Shown one piece after another: positions 29,129 through 45,231 of a stretch of DNA of 64,000 nt (position 1 is its first letter; the number at the start of each line of letters is the position of its first letter). The stretch is from NCBI GenBank assembly GCA_023053545.1, contig JAKZAN010000004.1, positions 5,890,001 through 5,954,000 of the forward strand. Direction: 5' to 3'. A program made the position numbers and the translations under genes. A model generated the notes under the pieces. It worked only from the letters and a program-made list of their open reading frames with translations. It made no database searches and was not told the DNA's origin. The DNA comes from Lepidurus packardi. Its lineage: Eukaryota; Arthropoda; Branchiopoda; Notostraca; Triopsidae.

Positions 29129-30343
29129 ACTGTACCTAAGAAAGATACAAAATAACTATATGATATATGCAAGAGAAAATTACATGGAATGAATCCTTAC
29201 TTTTGAGTTTTGTTTGGTTTTATTTAATGAATTAACGTCATAAAACAGATTTCAGAACGATCACAATGTTTTCTTTGAAGCCTCTGCTTATTGATATCGA
29301 ATGTCTGAAGACAATCGATAGAGAAGTGAACCAAAAGACTGTTTTCGAGGTGTTGATGAAACGATAAATGCGAAACGCGAAAGGTAAACGCAAAATGATG
29401 CTGTGAGACCGCTCGAACGAAATCCCGTGAAACGGAGTAAAATGCGAATCTGTAGCTTGAGAGAAGTTGTATTGTTGTATCCCTATCCTGCTTGTAGACA
29501 CATCCAACGGGAGACGTGAAGTGCGAAACACGAAATGGTCAAGAAAGCGAAACACGAAATGGTCAAGAAAGCGAAACACGAAATGGTCAAGAAAGCGAAA
29601 CACGAAATGGTCAAGAAAGCGAAACACGAAATGGTCAATAAAGCGAAACGTGCTACTGTCCCACAAATTTACAAGGATAGGAAAATTTGGCGGAAAGGGA
29701 CGAAGCTTATTCAACTAAATAATGAATTACTCGGTTAATATGCATACTTGACATAGGGGTTCTTCAGCAATAGCACTTCATTTGGTCTGTTCTACAACAT
29801 ATCTTTTTACTTTTTCAGACCTTACTCCCCTTTAAAGGGTGCATAAAGAACAGATCAAATTAAAAGTTCTGGCTGAAGCGAATATATTATGTTATATTAT
29901 CTGACACTTTGTTTTTGAATTTGTGAAATTCCAATAAAGAGATTTGGATAGTAACAAGACTTGTGTATCGTTCGGAGAACTCATTTCTCCACACTGACCC
30001 CCCTTTCATCAAAATGGGCCCCTTTTATACCCGGGGTTAAAGCGAATATTAGAACAGATGTATAACAGAAAGGTACAGAATTACACATAGGATCCCGAAT
30101 TACATATTAAAAGAAAAGATACAGAATTACACATTACACGTGTACAGAGTTTCGCAACCACATCAAGCATAGTATATAACTTTTACACCAGATTTTACAC
30201 CGGGCGTTTACATCAGATTCTGTCTTAAGGATGTAAAATGACATAATCTTTGAAATAAGTTTAGAATGTAGGAAAGGGTTGGTAAAAGACCTTGAATTAA
30301 AAGGCAGCAATTTCATCGTAAAGATGGGAAGTTCTAATCTCGT
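29129..30343. other. Intergenic, between the BACURD start and the sushi-gene 3' end
   Basis: Contains the 24-bp tandem repeat at 29523-29642. A related GCGAAA/AAATGCG-rich stretch lies at about 29350-29450 and reappears, inverted, near 34500-34600. The part from 29930 to 30060 has an AATAAA and, on the minus strand, a TATAAAAGG; it faintly resembles a long terminal repeat but has no partner in the window. No gene recognised. Confidence 0.5.
29523..29642. repeat. 24-bp minisatellite, five copies
   Basis: The unit GCGAAACACGAAATGGTCAA plus GAAA is repeated five times head to tail; four copies are identical and the fifth differs by one base (AATAAA for AAGAAA). Because 24 is a multiple of three and the unit lacks stops in several frames, it produces artificial repetitive open frames on both strands. 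It lies about 400 nt upstream of the BACURD start codon, so it may be in that gene's leader intron or promoter. Confidence 0.95.
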
Positions 30344-33300
30344 CTAAGTAATCAGTGGATCATTTTGAATTTCGCCTTTAGCGTCTGACACATATCCTTT
30401 TCCGGTTCTTTTATCTCTTTCGACATGGAATCGCAAATGCATGGAATCATACGACTTGTCTTCTGTCTTGCGCCTAGAAAGTACATGTTCTTTTCATATT
30501 AACCTTTTATGACATTATATCAAACTTGTTTTACCTTTGCTGTCGTTTGCAAAAATAGCAACATGCCAAAATTGAAAACAATATAGTGGAAATGCACGCC
30601 CCAATAACCGTGCCAATAAAAGCTGTCTTCCAAGAACTCTCTATTCAAATAATATTCGATATGTATGTTTCAATAAAATAATTCCAAATCTTGCTTACCA
30701 CAAGCAGATTCATCTAGGCTATGTATTGTTGAATTCGGGTACTCCAGATATTCCGTCAAATTCTCGCTCCTTGAAGTGTCTGTAACAATAAGCTCTGTCG
30801 TAGTTGTTGTTGGTACCTGGCAGATAAACTTTGATGGTAGATTGGACCAAGTACCGTGTGCTTGGCAAATAGAAATGCCTAGTCCTAAATGTTGTTCAAA
30901 GATCAGTATATGTAGTGTATTAATTAAGGTCAAAAGAAAAGTGGCGCAGGAAACCAACTTGGTCCAGGACGGACTTGTACTGTTATTCGTGCTTGCCTGA
31001 AAGTTGCTGAAGTTTGCAACAGCAAATCACGTTGATTTCCTGCGTTATCTTTTTTGAACATTATAGTGCTACTATAATGAATGCTTGAAAGTACAGTGAA
31101 AACTGTTTAACATGAAAAACCTGTTAACACAAAATAGAATTCCAGTCTGGACAAACGCTATGTAACTACATCAATCTTTTAGCACGAAATCCTTTTAACA
31201 TGAAAAAATATTCCGGTCCCTCCGGTTTCGTGTTAAACAGTTTTCACTGTATTTACTTTGGCCATTAGCTGGTTCTGCAAGATTGACGCAAACGTATGTT
31301 GCTTGAGAACCTTCGGAATAACCTTGTATGTTTGCCAGTATAGTGTTAGCAACCGAAGGCGGTTCGCTACAGATAATTTTACCTAGATTTTTTAAACAGA
31401 TAATTAGATTGCCATGAAGAAAGAGAGTATGTTTCAATGTGTTTCAGTAAAATTTTTCTTCTTTTCCGTTAAATAAAGACAAAATCTTGTTTACCACAAG
31501 CAGATTCAAAACTATGTATTCCCAAGTAGCACAAGTTGGTCGAAGGAACGTCTGTTTCTGACCTTTAACGTCAAAAAGTGACGTTATTTCAACGTTGCAA
31601 AGACATACAATTTGCAATCTTTGGTAATCTTTTAATCGTTGGGGAAAGAAAAATCCCCGTAGGACTATATACTTGACTCTGAGCAACGTTGTTTCGACCT
31701 AAAACGGACGATACCTTGGACGTCTAAATTTGACGATTATACAACGTAAAGGTGACATACAATTTGCAGTCCGTCTGAACGTCACAAAGTGACGTCAATT
31801 TCAGACGTCGGCGACGTCATTTCAACTATTTATCGACCAACTTGTGCTACTTGGGTTGTTGAGTGTAGATAATCCAGATTTTCCGTCGAATTCTTGCTCC
31901 TTGAAGTGACTGTAACAAGCTCTGTCGTAGTTGTTGTTGGTACCTGGCAGATAAACTTTGGTGGTAGATTAGACCAAATACCGTGTGCTTGGCAAATCGA
32001 AATACCTAGTCCTAAATTTGTTTTTCAAAGATCAGTTTATGTAGTGTATTAATTAAGGTCAAAAGAAAGTAATGCAGGAAACAAACTTGGTTCAGGCCGA
32101 ACCTGCAGTGTTACTCATGTTTGCCTGAAAGTTGCTGAAGTTTGCACCAGCAAATCAGGTTGATTTTCAGCGTTACCTTTTTTGGACCTTATAGCGTACC
32201 ACTGAGGAATGCTTGAAAATATTTACTTTGGCCATTAGCTGGTTCTGCAAAATTGCTGCAAATGTATATTGCTTGAGAACCTTCGGAATAACCTTGTATA
32301 TTTGCCAGTATAGCGTTGGGAACCGAAGGCGGTTCACTACATGTAATTTTACCTAAGTTTTTAAACAGATAATTCGATTGCAGTGAAAAAGGGAAGTATA
32401 ATATTTTCTACGTTTGCAGTGTAAACCATGATCCGCATAACGTAACCATACTCCGAAACTGGTACAGAGCAATACTTTGTCAGCAATCAGTTCAAAGCCG
32501 TCTTTACATTCAACTATCGCGACTGAGCGATCGAGTTTGTAGTAAATTCGTGCGTTTGCAATAAGGCTCTCTAAATCGATGCAACCTTGAGGAAAAATTA
32601 GTTATGTAAGGCATTAGTTAGTTTTTATTACTTGTGCCGGTCGTGAAAGATGCTTGCCATTTTTCTAGTTTGCATGTGGGTGTTATGGTCCTTGGCCAAT
32701 GTGTATAAGCTCCGTCAGGATCGCAATGTCGGTAACTAGGACCGATCAGCGTGAATCCTGACTGGCATTTGTACTCGACTCGCTTGGGTTCTACGTACAC
32801 GGCTGAACCAAAAGCCGGAGCTTCCGCTGATCCACATTCCGTGTTCCCTTGGAAATAGAAGTGTATTATACTGTATATAGGTTGAATATGTTGTGGAATA
32901 TTTACCATAATAAGCATAAGCTTCGATATCACAGAAAACCAGTGGCTTGTTGCCAGCAGTGAGTTCTTCTATCAAAATAGTATCACCAGGGCTTCCACCT
33001 GGAAAACCTTCGTTTTTTTGGTCAGGGCAATATATCGGTATTGCATATTTGTTGTTATTTCCTTCATGCAAGCCGCAAAGCGTTGATTTTTTAGTCAAGG
33101 TATCTATAACTGACACCTTCACGCTAAGTTCTGTGTTGTCTATTGAGAATGTGCTTAGTTACATGCCAACGTCTATAAAATAGTACTTCGTGAGAAAAGC
33201 TTGACTAGCCGAACACCAAGTTTCCGCTCCAAGCTTATGCGTACCCAGCGAGTTTTTCCTATTGGCTGTAGTTCAAGGCAAGGAGACACAAAATCGTCTA

Positions 33301-40142: not shown

Positions 40143-40488
40143 ACCAGACTGCCAGCAGGCGAAGCTTCTTACCGCACAGACTCTCCAACGGACAACATCT
40201 AGTTTCTAACGTCTTCTGAGGCTTCTAGAGAAGAATTAATCCGGTAATTAACCTTAAAATTTAATTTGTTTACTCTTTTCACAGGTAAAGCTTTTTAAAT
40301 TTTGTTTTGATCAAAGCTTAGAGCTTCGGACGACGGGAAAGTTGGCCTTGAGTAAGGCTTAGATGCTTGCATTTAGAAGTTTTCTGTCTCGAACGCTTGC
40401 AGACACACTAATTAAAGAAGTTTTTCAGCTGACTCACTTCCCTCGCGACGTCGTTTATCGCGCTTGTTATTGGCTTCTTCTAGGCACC

Positions 40489-41301
40489 ATGACCATTGAC
40501 TTGTACTACATGCTCTTGAGCCCCCCTTGCCGCGCAGTTATGATGGCAGCCAAAATTCTTGGAGTTGAACTCAATTTGAAATCGACTGACTTAATGGCTG
40601 GCGAGCATTTAAAGCCCGAGTACATCCAAATGAACGTTGAACATACCGTTCCCACCTTGGATGATAATGGCTTTGTTTTGACGGAAAGCCGTGCTATTAT
40701 GTCGTATTTGGCCAATCAGTACGGAAAGGAAAGCACGTTGTACCCACACGAGCCCAAAGTGCGTGGTTTGGTCGATTCAAGGATGTACTTTGATATGGGC
40801 GTGCTTTACCAACGGTTTGGCGACTACTGCGTAAGTTATTTTATAATTCTTGTATCATTACCCATGTTAATAGTACATAAACGTTCCTTTATTTACTTGT
40901 AATGTGTCTAGTTTCCTGCCATGTTTGATGGCCAAGACCGAGAACTTGACGCCGACAAAAAGAAGAAAATGAACGAAGCAATAGGGTTTCTGGATACTTT
41001 CTTAACCAAGAGCAAATACGCTGCCGCAGATCATCTCACTTTAGCTGATCTGACCCTTGTTGCATCTGTCACGACAATGGAAGTAATGTTTTTTAAAGAT
41101 ATTTTTTTTTAAATTAAGGATATCAAGCATTCCTATCTTCTTTTCTAGGCTACACTTCCCGAAATTTTTGCTTCTTTTCCTCACATTCAAGACTGGTTAG
41201 TTCGCTGCAAGGCTCAGATCCCTGACCACGAAACCACAAATCAGAAGGGTGTCGATATTGTTGGAGAAATTGCCAAGAATACCATTCACAAACATATTTA
41301 A
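40489..41301 (+). CDS. Delta-class glutathione S-transferase, copy 1
   Basis: Coding exons 40489-40830, 40912-41082 and 41149-41301 give 221 residues, the usual delta GST length. The non-coding leader exon ends at 40243 and its 240-nt intron ends at 40483, so the ATG sits 5 nt after the acceptor. The thioredoxin-like half has S11 in the S-P-P-C-R motif (catalytic Ser of delta GSTs; sisters have S-A-P-C-R), V54-P55-T56 and E66-S67-R68 for glutathione binding. The helical half contains DHLTLADLTL. It should conjugate glutathione to electrophiles in the cytosol. The leader intron stays open and in frame from an ATG at 40363, giving a possible 42-residue extension if retained, but a sister-conserved acceptor argues for the short form. 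Confidence 0.95.
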
Positions 41302-41893
41302 GAATTATTTCCGCTTCAAAACTCACTCGTTCTGAGTGTCCAAGTTTACTTTCTATAGGAGTTTTACAAGAACTGGCCATGTTATTGTACTTCATTCTTT
41401 TCACCCAGTAAAAGCAATTAAACATATTCTTAATTTGGTAATATAGTACAGTATTGGAAAAGTGTAAACCTTATTAATGATGGTTTAATTTCCCACCTTT
41501 CCAAGATATTTCTTTGCCGTGGCTTTTTTGCCTTTGAGCATTTTTTTGGTTTCGATATTAATTTTTCATTTACAAATAACCTCACGCGCATGCATACCGT
41601 CCTAGTTTCTAACTGAATAGAAATATTAACTGAAATAAAAAACATTGAAAATAAATTTTTAAAAAATGGTTAAGTTACGATCTGTGATCTCCATGCAAGG
41701 CAGCCTGACGATTTACCACTGTTTACGCCTTTATAGTATATAGGCGTGCAAGAACTATACGTTCGGTAAAGCTGTTTTTGTTTGTGTTAAGCTGTGTTCA
41801 GCGTGATACTAACAGTAGCGAGGGAAGCTTTTTGAAAATTTCTTTTATACCAGACAAGCATTTAGCACGCATGGGATAACTTCGCAATTTCCG

Positions 41894-41950
41894 CCAATCA
41901 CGATGACTGGTGAGAATGCGGACCCAATCCGACACTCCTCGTATATAAAG
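41894..41950 (+). promoter_or_regulatory. GST-2 promoter: CCAAT box and TATA box
   Basis: CCAAT at 41894-41898 in CCAATCACGATGACTGGTGAG and TATAAAG at 41944-41950. The block is a paralogue of the GST-1 promoter; 20 of 21 bases around the CCAAT box match. The leader exon ends at 42053 (TTTAACCG before GTAATTAAC), matching the GST-1 leader. Confidence 0.7.
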
Positions 41951-42504
41951 CCACGTTTGCCAGAAGAGGAAGCTTACTTATCGTGCGGACTCTCCAAGAG
42001 ACGACATCTAGCTGCTTTACCGCTTGTGAAGCGTCCAAAGACGAATTTAACCGGTAATTAACGTTAGAGTTTGCGCGTTTATTGTGTTAAAACCTAGCTT
42101 ATTCTTTACTCAGTAGATAATTGATAGCTTCGACAATTTATAGTATTAAACATTCATTAAATATACCTGTTGTTATCCACAAGCTAGCGCAGTATTGATA
42201 ATTTAGTTTTGTGTAAAGCTTAGGAATTTAGGACGACATGCAAGTTGGCCTTGAGCTTGAAAACAGCTTAGGGCGCGGAAGCATGTATTTGGAAGTTTGC
42301 TGGCAGGAACCTTCGTGCAGACGTGTATTAATTGACGAGTTTTAGCTGACGCAGTCGTTTCTTTTCTCTTTTGGAAGAAACTTTCATTTCCGGTCAGATA
42401 GTAACACAAGCAAGAACATGACTACTGTTTTTTATTGTCGATTTTTTTCTTACGACGTCGGTTTAACGCGCTTTATTGTTATTGGCTTTGTCTTTATAGG
42501 CACC

Positions 42505-43323
42505 ATGACAATTGACCTGTACTACATGCCATTGAGCGCCCCTTGCCGCGCAATTATGATGGCAGCCAAAATTCTTGGAGTGGACCTCAACTTGAAATTG
42601 ACCGACTTGATGGCTGGCGAGCATTTAAAGCCCGAGTACATCCAAATGAACGTCCAACATACCATTCCAACCTTGGATGACAATGGCTTTGTTTTGACGG
42701 AAAGCCGTGCTATTATGTCGTATTTGGCAAGTCAGTACGGAAAGGATAGTACGTTGTACCCCCAAGAACCCAAAGTGCGAGGTTTGATTGACTCTAGGAT
42801 GTATTTTGATATGGGCGTGCTTTACCAACGCTATGGCGAATACTCCGTAAGTTGCCTTTTTTTACTAAAGTTTGGTTACACGAGCATACTTTAGTATAGA
42901 GATGACCCTTTATTATTATTGTAACGTTTATAGTACCCTGCATTGTTTTTTGGACAAAACACACAAGATCCTGAGAAGAAGAAGAAAATGGAAGAAGCTT
43001 TAGGGTTTCTGGAAGCTTTCTTAACCAAGGAGAAGTACGCTGCCGGAGATCATCTTACTTTGGCTGATCTGACTCTTCTTGCATCTGCAACAACAATCGA
43101 AGTAATGCGCTTTTAGAGAGATTTATTTTCGAAATTAGAGTAACTATAAGCATTTTATCTTCCATTCTAGGCTACATATCCCGAAGTTTTTGCCTCTTAT
43201 CCTCACATTCAAGATTGGCTAGTTCGTTGCAAGGCTCAGATCCCTGATCACGAAAACATAAACCAAAAGGGAGCAGATGTTATTGGAGAAATGGCCAAGA
43301 ACACGATTCACAAACAAGCTTAG
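42505..43323 (+). CDS. Delta-class glutathione S-transferase, copy 2
   Basis: Coding exons 42505-42846, 42934-43101 and 43171-43323 give 220 residues. The leader intron runs 42054-42499. The protein is closely similar to copy 1 (S11 in S-A-P-C-R, I54-P55-T56, E66-S67-R68), with a different linker after the first coding exon (FFGQNTQDPEKKKKMEEALG). Intron positions are identical in all three copies, so they arose by tandem duplication. Function is by family: glutathione conjugation and detoxification. As in copy 1, the leader intron is open in frame from 42418. Confidence 0.95.
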
Positions 43324-44418
43324 AAGTTATTTCCGTGCCAAGTCTTATTGTTTCCATTGAAACTTTGTAAAAAGCTGGCCATCTTGTCTTTGCTTCACCG
43401 TATACTGAACAATATATAGAAGCAATTCGTTAAGAAAGAAGGCTTCCTTATCTAAGATAGTACAGCAAAAAGTTAACAATTTTTGTTAATGAAGTTCTAA
43501 ATTTTCCGCATTCCCAATATTAATTTATTTGCCCATTCTGTCGCTATTTAATATATTAGTGTGTAATTATAGTACTCGTAAATTTATCTTACATTTGCAG
43601 GCTATATTACCTTCGCTGATTAATATTTACTCACTATAACGACAAATTGCCTTTCACTTGCGCTAAACTGGTACTTCTTCTAGAAATACCTACTTATAGC
43701 TCTTTTAAACTAAGTGATTAGCTATATTTCGTATCCTGAGATATGCAAAGCGATAATGATATGATATAAGGGTTGGAATGCATCGTCATCATAACATTCA
43801 GTAAGCCAACGTTAGTAACAAACCATTATGACAACTTGACTATCCCCCACCATGATAACGTTTTAGATTACGGCTTGAGATCGTACGATCTATAATACGC
43901 CTCGTGTAACGGTTCGACAAGAAGAATCGCTATTCTAAAAGTTGGGGGTGGCTGTCAGTGACAAAACTAAAACGTTTAGACAAAAACGATTTTAGACAAA
44001 AAAAAACTGAGTCTGGTAATTGACACTTTTACAAATAAGATCAACATTTTAACGTTATTTTTTCTTACCCAGACACAATTTTATTTAGTTTGGGCTTGTC
44101 TAAAGAAAAATCTGCTTGCATGCGGAATCTTAGCTAAGTCTTTAATCACGTAGCTTTCTCTTAGGCTTAGACGAAAGATGGGTTTCCTTGAAAACAGCTA
44201 TTAGCAGATGCTCGCACATGGAAGTCTTCTTTCGCGAAACTTCACACTCTTTAATTGACATGATATTTACTTGAATTATTTTTTCCTGTTTACTTATTTG
44301 GGAGAAGATTATAATTTCCTAGTTTACGATTGTAAGACCAATATAAGGCATAGTGGCTATTTTGTTGCAGAATTTTTTCCAGACACCTTTCCAATGAGCT
44401 CGTTATTTTCTAGGTACA

Positions 44419-45231
44419 ATGACCATTGACTTTTATTACGCGCTCCCAAGCGCTCCTTGCCGCGCAGTTATGATGGCAGCTAAGATTCTTGGTGTGGAAC
44501 TCAACTTGAAATCGGTTGACATGAGGGCTGCCGAACATTTGAAACCCGAGTTTATCAAAATGAATATCCAACATACAATTCCAACCTTGGATGATAATGG
44601 CTTCGTATTGACCGAAAGCCGTGCCATGATGACATATTTGGCTAATCAGTATGGAAAGGATAGCACTTTGTACCCAAAAGAGCCCAAGTCGCGAGGTTTA
44701 CTTGATTCGAGAATGTATTTTGATATGGGCGTGCTTTACCGTCGCTATGCCGAATACTCCGTAAGTTCTATCCCCTAAAGATACTTTTATTATATATTGC
44801 ACAATGTATCCAAAAATGCCTGTATTTAATGTTAAAACGTTTTTAGTATCCTGCTCTACTTCACGGCCATCAATTAGACGCAGAGAAAAAGAAAAAGATG
44901 GATGAAGCTCTTGGGTTCCTGGAAGCTTTCTTAACGACGACGGAATACGCTGTTGCAGACCATCTGACTTTAGCAGATATTACTCTTTTTGCAACTGTTA
45001 CGACGATTGAAGTATGCGAATTTCTCAAAGTTGTTTTGGGAATCACGCTAGTTGCTGTTTGTGTATTTCTTCCTGTAGGCTACATATCCCGGAGTGCTTG
45101 CTTCCTTTCCCTGCATTCAAGATTGGCTTGTTCGCTGCAAGGCTCAGATCCCTGACCAAGAAAACATAAATCAAAAGGGAGCCGATTTTATTGGCGAAAT
45201 AGCAAAGAACACGATCCATAAAGAAGCTTAG
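44419..45231 (+). CDS. Delta-class glutathione S-transferase, copy 3
   Basis: Coding exons 44419-44760, 44847-45011 and 45079-45231 give 219 residues, with S11 in S-A-P-C-R, I54-P55-T56 and E66-S67-R68 intact. An acceptor (TTTTCTAG) ends at 44413, so a leader exon is expected, but I cannot find a copy of the CCAAT/TATA promoter seen at copies 1 and 2 in the 1 kb upstream. It may use a diverged promoter or be expressed by read-through from copy 2. Its stop codon is followed after 2 nt by a copy of its own start region (45234-45277). Confidence 0.95.

Follow-up and report, generated by a model that had tools for sequence, protein, structure and literature searches.

A minus-strand gene in the stretch of DNA analysed here (the window; 64,000 nucleotides, C3:5,890,001-5,954,000) contains a Sushi (CCP) exon pair as two tandem copies, and each copy is interrupted by a different short transposable element that is missing from its sister copy at the exact base. 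The element in the intron of copy 1, which we call E1, measures 156 bp and belongs to a Tigger/pogo-type family; the element in the second exon of copy 2, E2, measures 335 bp and belongs to a family of the TRC/CACTA type. The arrangement points to three successive events. The exon pair would have been duplicated in tandem within a gene for a probable single-pass membrane protein, E1 would then have been pasted into a TA of the copy 1 intron, and more recently the linker exon of copy 2 would have received E2, an internally deleted element, whose insertion duplicated 2 bp. Both are cut-and-paste DNA transposons that lack coding capacity; the transposases that moved them would come from genes at other places in the genome. 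We hold this scenario as a whole to be highly probable. All genome searches reported below covered 108.6 Mb in 344 contigs.

The duplicated exon pair and its two insertions

Pairwise alignment of window positions 30660-31435 with 31430-32405 gives one block in tandem, broken by two large one-sided gaps that correspond to E1 and E2. The tandem duplication of a two-exon block of CCP domain plus linker, which an initial annotation of this DNA had proposed, is seen directly in this alignment, with K2P distances between the copies of 0.103-0.106 for exon sequence and 0.136 for the intron. Exon A, which encodes the first half of the Sushi domain, lies at 31257-31382 in copy 1 (A1) and at 32227-32352 in copy 2 (A2), with 126 nt each. 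Exon B, which encodes the second half of the same domain and the linker, lies at 30699-30884 in copy 1 (B1; 186 nt) and at 31495-32011 in copy 2 (B2; 517 nt including E2); all four are on the minus strand. The splice sites were read from GT/AG dinucleotides and the open frame rather than from transcripts, and at these predicted sites every boundary is in phase 1. When A1 and B1 are joined, they match the Sushi family PF00084 with 21.4 bits, just above the cut-off of 20.7. A hydrophobic stretch with a basic end, read by eye within 30520-30660, follows downstream, and the gene product is therefore likely to be a membrane protein, probably of the single-pass type.

E1 occupies positions 31094-31249 and is recognized by the alignment gap, its inverted arms, its family and its TA duplication (31092-31093 and 31250-31251). 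The second TA coincides with positions +6/+7 of the predicted splice donor of exon A1. At the corresponding site, copy 2 has a single TA (32220-32221). E2 occupies positions 31521-31855, and is likewise defined by the alignment gap together with its terminal inverted repeats (TIRs), its family copies and a 2-bp duplication, here TT (31519-31520 and 31856-31857); the copy alignment gives a single TT (30726-30727) in copy 1. None of these elements and sites is assigned to a strand. The placement of E1 in the intron of copy 1 and of E2 in the exon of copy 2 with reciprocal empty sites, as first annotated, is upheld by the alignment, and the element lengths and duplications given there were correct to the base. 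Both inserts are bounded by inverted repeats, one of the two points on which the annotation had staked its reading beforehand: the arms of E1 are 29 nt long, including a little flank, and 93% complementary, while those of E2 are 23 nt long and 100% complementary. With at most one mismatch, 19-base TIR patterns match the genome 40 times for E1 and 41 times for E2, and the reversed control matches 0 times, so these counts are not due to chance. The description of the two as unrelated short TIR elements also stands.

A pairwise gap is symmetrical, and this symmetry is all that speaks for reading the gaps as deletions in one copy instead of insertions in the other. Both segments, however, belong to repeat families dispersed through the genome, whose other members have the same ends and target duplications, 13 full copies of E2 lie in different flanks, and the E2-less state is common to three paralogous exons. 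Deletion is ruled out by the dispersed E2 copies with their differing flanks and by the E2-less paralogs, and we assign it a negligible probability.

With insertion as the preferred reading, the order of events can be considered for each element. Three paralogous exons of the same chromosome (C3:5.55, 5.69 and 5.85 Mb; loci L081, L083 and L082) run through the site of E2 without interruption, with TG in place of TT in the 5.69-Mb paralog. The divergence of E2 is 0.009, compared with 0.10-0.14 between the exon-pair copies. On these two grounds, the sequence comparison places the insertion of E2 firmly after the duplication, as the initial annotation had proposed for both elements. For E1 it is the empty site in copy 2 that carries this order, because the divergence of E1 from its family majority (0.075; majority from ten rows, with L080 at 0.43 and L041 at 0.12 as outliers) is about half of the intron distance of 0.136 and thus close to the per-copy divergence since the duplication. 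The same agreement in age would also be compatible with an E1 inserted ahead of the tandem duplication and afterwards removed precisely from copy 2, which would make the empty site secondary. Such elements, however, generally leave some bases at the site when they excise, and copy 2 shows a clean single TA with no footprint, so that we regard an earlier E1 as decidedly improbable and retain its insertion after the duplication. The paralogs are uninformative on E1, since two of them are without the Sushi pair and the third could be aligned only to the start of the intron.

The two paralogs at C3:5.85 and 5.69 Mb, in which the Sushi exon pair is absent, show the linker followed directly by sequence that otherwise stands before exon A; the number of Sushi exons thus varies within this gene cluster. 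Beside the third paralogous exon lies a copy related to E1 (C3:5,549,670-5,549,786, L081:71-187; 72%), which was apparently inserted independently, because its position and strand are different. Two further features of the window were observed. Positions 29523-29673 hold a tandem array with a 24-bp unit, whose successive 55-nt registers are 98-100% alike and whose last fades at 69%. At least three similar glutathione transferase ORFs stand in a row at 40363-44775, and the first matches enzymes of the delta class, an arthropod class, best, on which ground we take the host to be an arthropod.

The families of E1 and E2

The genome search suggested with the initial annotation finds both elements elsewhere in the genome. 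For E1, at least 43 alignments fall within the element (43 of 50 alignments; 40 of 158 candidates scored), and a 22-base TIR pattern with at most three mismatches has 250 genome matches, against 7 for the reversed control. TA stands on both sides in 12 of the 14 copies with both ends read, and is absent from one side in the other two; this count leaves out L042, whose right end was not found, and L074, which has one end, and includes L005 with a left end set by eye from the alignment.

The pogo-like label of E1 is borne out at C3:3,291,164 (L074), where a right TIR of the E1 type, followed by TA, stands about 30 bp beyond the end of a broken ORF. This ORF matches DDE_1 with an E value of 2.8e-21 in one piece and 0.012 in another, and shows a weak match to a Tc5-type HTH (E 0.0042). 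The 2,251 bases read at this locus yielded no left TIR, so this partner is linked to E1 by one end only. MITEs of the Tigger/pogo group, within the Tc1/mariner superfamily, are characterized by a TA duplication, TIRs beginning CAGT and a DDE_1 transposase. E1 shares the TA duplication, the CAGT start and the DDE_1 remnant before the right terminus, and differs in that the only partner located is broken and seen without its left end. Judged from its sequence, E1 is a Tigger/pogo-type MITE.

For E2 the genome search returned 44 alignments, of which at least 13 are full length (330-335 bp; 40 of 47 candidates scored). All 13 full copies carry CCCAAGTAGCAC at both ends, with TIRs that start CCC. 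Identical 2-bp flanks occur in 12 of the 13, compared with 19 of 156 mismatched flank pairs; the exception is L012, with CT/TT. The duplicated dinucleotide is TT, TA, AA, TG, AT or CT. Because it varies across the family, TT is a feature of the window copy, for which the first annotation of the duplication is correct, and does not serve as a target rule for E2. Duplications of 3 bp or of 4 bp were found at none of the 13 copies.

The E2 copies are very similar to one another. Eight of the 13 are without substitution relative to the family majority, six of these eight are also without a gap, and the copy in the window has 3 substitutions in 335 positions. Four long elements (3,457, 8,585, 6,038 and 10,125 bp) match the first 107 and the last 218 bases of E2 at 97-100%. 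A 2-bp duplication flanks three of the four, the 8,585-bp element on C4 being the exception, and three of the four contain matches to the transposase query, with no match in the 3,457-bp element on C16. E2 is thus a young, internally deleted copy in which the two end regions of longer elements are joined. It is short, homogeneous and without an ORF, as a MITE is, but 13 full copies are few for a MITE. The search for autonomous partners, also proposed at the outset, accordingly yields transposase pieces in three of four long elements for E2 and the broken, one-ended remnant for E1.

The long E2-type elements have additional features of their own. In all four (L050 and the other three), a 108-bp subterminal stretch located about 110 bp in from the right end occurs in two copies that are 80-81% identical; subterminal repeats are frequent in CACTA elements. 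About 1.9 kb of extra sequence in one long element holds an ORF that matches Viral_Rep (L057:4930-5491, C1:4,215,929-4,216,490; PF02407, E 5.1e-14) and looks like a fragment of an endogenous CRESS-DNA Rep. The 10.1-kb element contains about 3.7 kb of extra sequence with ORFs (L053:97-2389, C1:3.2047-3.2070 Mb) of hAT-like appearance; the three pieces scanned gave no hAT Pfam match. A family related to E2 occurs at seven places that are 73-74% identical to its last 174 bases (C5:12,362,238; C5:12,171,510; C4:10,743,959; C4:7,543,223; C2:5,654,103; C5:26,057; C3:971,483).

Superfamily placement of E2

The E2-type transposase is represented by a 661-aa frame and a 655-aa relative. The 661-aa frame at C4:2,492,843 is 97% identical to the transposase query over residues 1-125; in an alignment of the frames, its last residues are not common to its relatives, and the DNA beyond it looks like a retroelement. 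This protein and the 655-aa relative give weak matches to Transposase_21, DUF4218 and DUF1258, each below the cut-off of its family (Transposase_21: E 2.2e-4, 20.9 bits, cut-off 28.6). A genome search with Transposase_21 (PF02992) at E values up to 1 listed 12 places, with the loci of the E2-type transposase not among them, so the superfamily placement of E2 relies on combined features. A sequence search of the PDB with the transposase returned two hits with E values of 0.25 and 0.39, which we take to be chance.

These features come from the termini, the target duplications and the conserved residues of the transposase. A sister family (L059) has a terminus that matches the E2 TIR at 18 of 19 bases and, 1.3 kb inside, a frame of 755 aa from the protein family of the E2-type transposase; no right terminus was recognized for this element in the 10 kb read. 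Among six aligned transposase frames, C(2)C is present in all six and HGLIH, an H(3)H motif, in five, which are those reaching that far. The L062 frame has DG, CDAPA at 320, CQKC at 340, HGLIH at 550 and AEN at 573, in that order, and C(2)C and H(3)H stand between the second D and the last E if the catalytic D and E residues are assigned as we propose. DeMarco et al. 2006 print a motif I of Transposase_21 that they describe as present 'in most of the elements'. Of this motif the protein has the hydrophobic lead with DG, and WPI, but lacks the intervening F/Y, so that the full pattern is not matched. The account of the CMCT group in PMC12730594 states a rule of C(2)C and H(3-4)H and duplications of 2 to 5 bp, and describes CMC/CMCT termini as 5'-CA..TG-3' 'in most cases'; those of E2 are CCC..GGG. 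TRC, the animal group of CACTA, is described with CCC as the stated core of its ends, duplications of 2 bp and a Transposase_21 protein (PMC1636069), and it is to this group that we assign E2 on the combined sequence features.

Might E2 instead be a member of a different superfamily in which duplications are short or ends read CCC, such as ISL2EU or a piggyBac-like group, its link to a TNP2-like transposase being accidental? The Pfam scores below cut-off and the CCC start of the TIRs, as in piggyBac, would fit this, as would the absence of CA..TG termini, which most members of the wider CMCT group have (PMC12730594). On the other hand, 4-bp duplications are absent from all 13 copies, three of the four long copies enclose transposase pieces within the same TIRs, the relative with the nearly identical terminus carries a frame of the same protein family, and the L062 frame has the ordered series from DG to AEN. 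We consider such an affiliation very unlikely, and TRC remains the preferred placement.

Individual candidates were rejected on their target duplications and ends. Plant-type CACTA elements duplicate 3 bp, which none of the 13 E2 copies shows, and the ends of E2 read CCCAA rather than the core CACTA. PiggyBac elements duplicate TTAA and have TIRs that begin CCC; no TTAA duplication, or any other of 4 bp, was found at the 13 copies. Tc1/mariner and hAT do not fit a duplication of 2 bp and varied sequence, which is neither TA nor 8 bp long. At L060:3060-7127 (C2:3,077,959-3,082,026), an open frame of 1,356 aa that matches both MULE transposase and C2H2 zinc fingers lies between a terminus of the TRC type and a transposase frame of the same type.

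The host gene and known transposon systems

In exon B2, the open frame runs into a TAA immediately after the 23-nt terminal repeat of E2. Translation into this stop would yield a protein without copy 1 and the membrane anchor, unless B2 is skipped. With E2, the exon is not a multiple of three; A1, A2 and B1 are multiples of three and all boundaries are in phase 1, so skipping of B2 would keep the frame. Should E2 still be mobile and segregate at this locus, the gene could switch between a membrane form and a truncated secreted or exon-skipped Sushi receptor, in a cluster that varies in Sushi exon number; we think this unlikely. The E2 family, with its high proportion of copies free of substitutions, is young enough to merit testing for current activity, and a single locus yields base-exact target duplications for two element families.

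The initial annotation called the locus an unusually clean record, which overstates the case, as the 2006 work on SmTRC1 had already made this use of paralogous empty sites (PMC1636069). E1 and E2 are members of known transposon kinds and the method is a known one; the case is tidy but ordinary, and because both element types and the method were already known, the gain lies mainly in the annotation of this genome. A full-text literature search limited to the first 13 bases of the E2 TIR gave a sole, unrelated match (human fever genes). The DNA transposon catalogue of Daphnia pulex lists CACTA with 3 to 18 and Pogo with 3 to 9 copies by BLASTN (PMC2884549); its likeness to E1 and E2 is one of family names.

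For E2 the closest known systems are the TRC (Transposon Related to CACTA) elements. Like those described in PMC1636069, which include SmTRC1 of Schistosoma and elements of Tribolium and Aedes, and like Spongebob of Hydra (PMC4298943), E2 combines TIRs that start CCC with a 2-bp duplication and a TNP2-like transposase. E2 differs from these elements in that it measures 335 bp, is internally deleted and carries no ORF of its own family, and the Pfam match of its transposase lies under the family cut-off. The TIR of the Tribolium element starts CCCTAGTAGCACC (PMC1636069) and that of E2 CCCAAGTAGCACA, with 2 of the 13 bases different.
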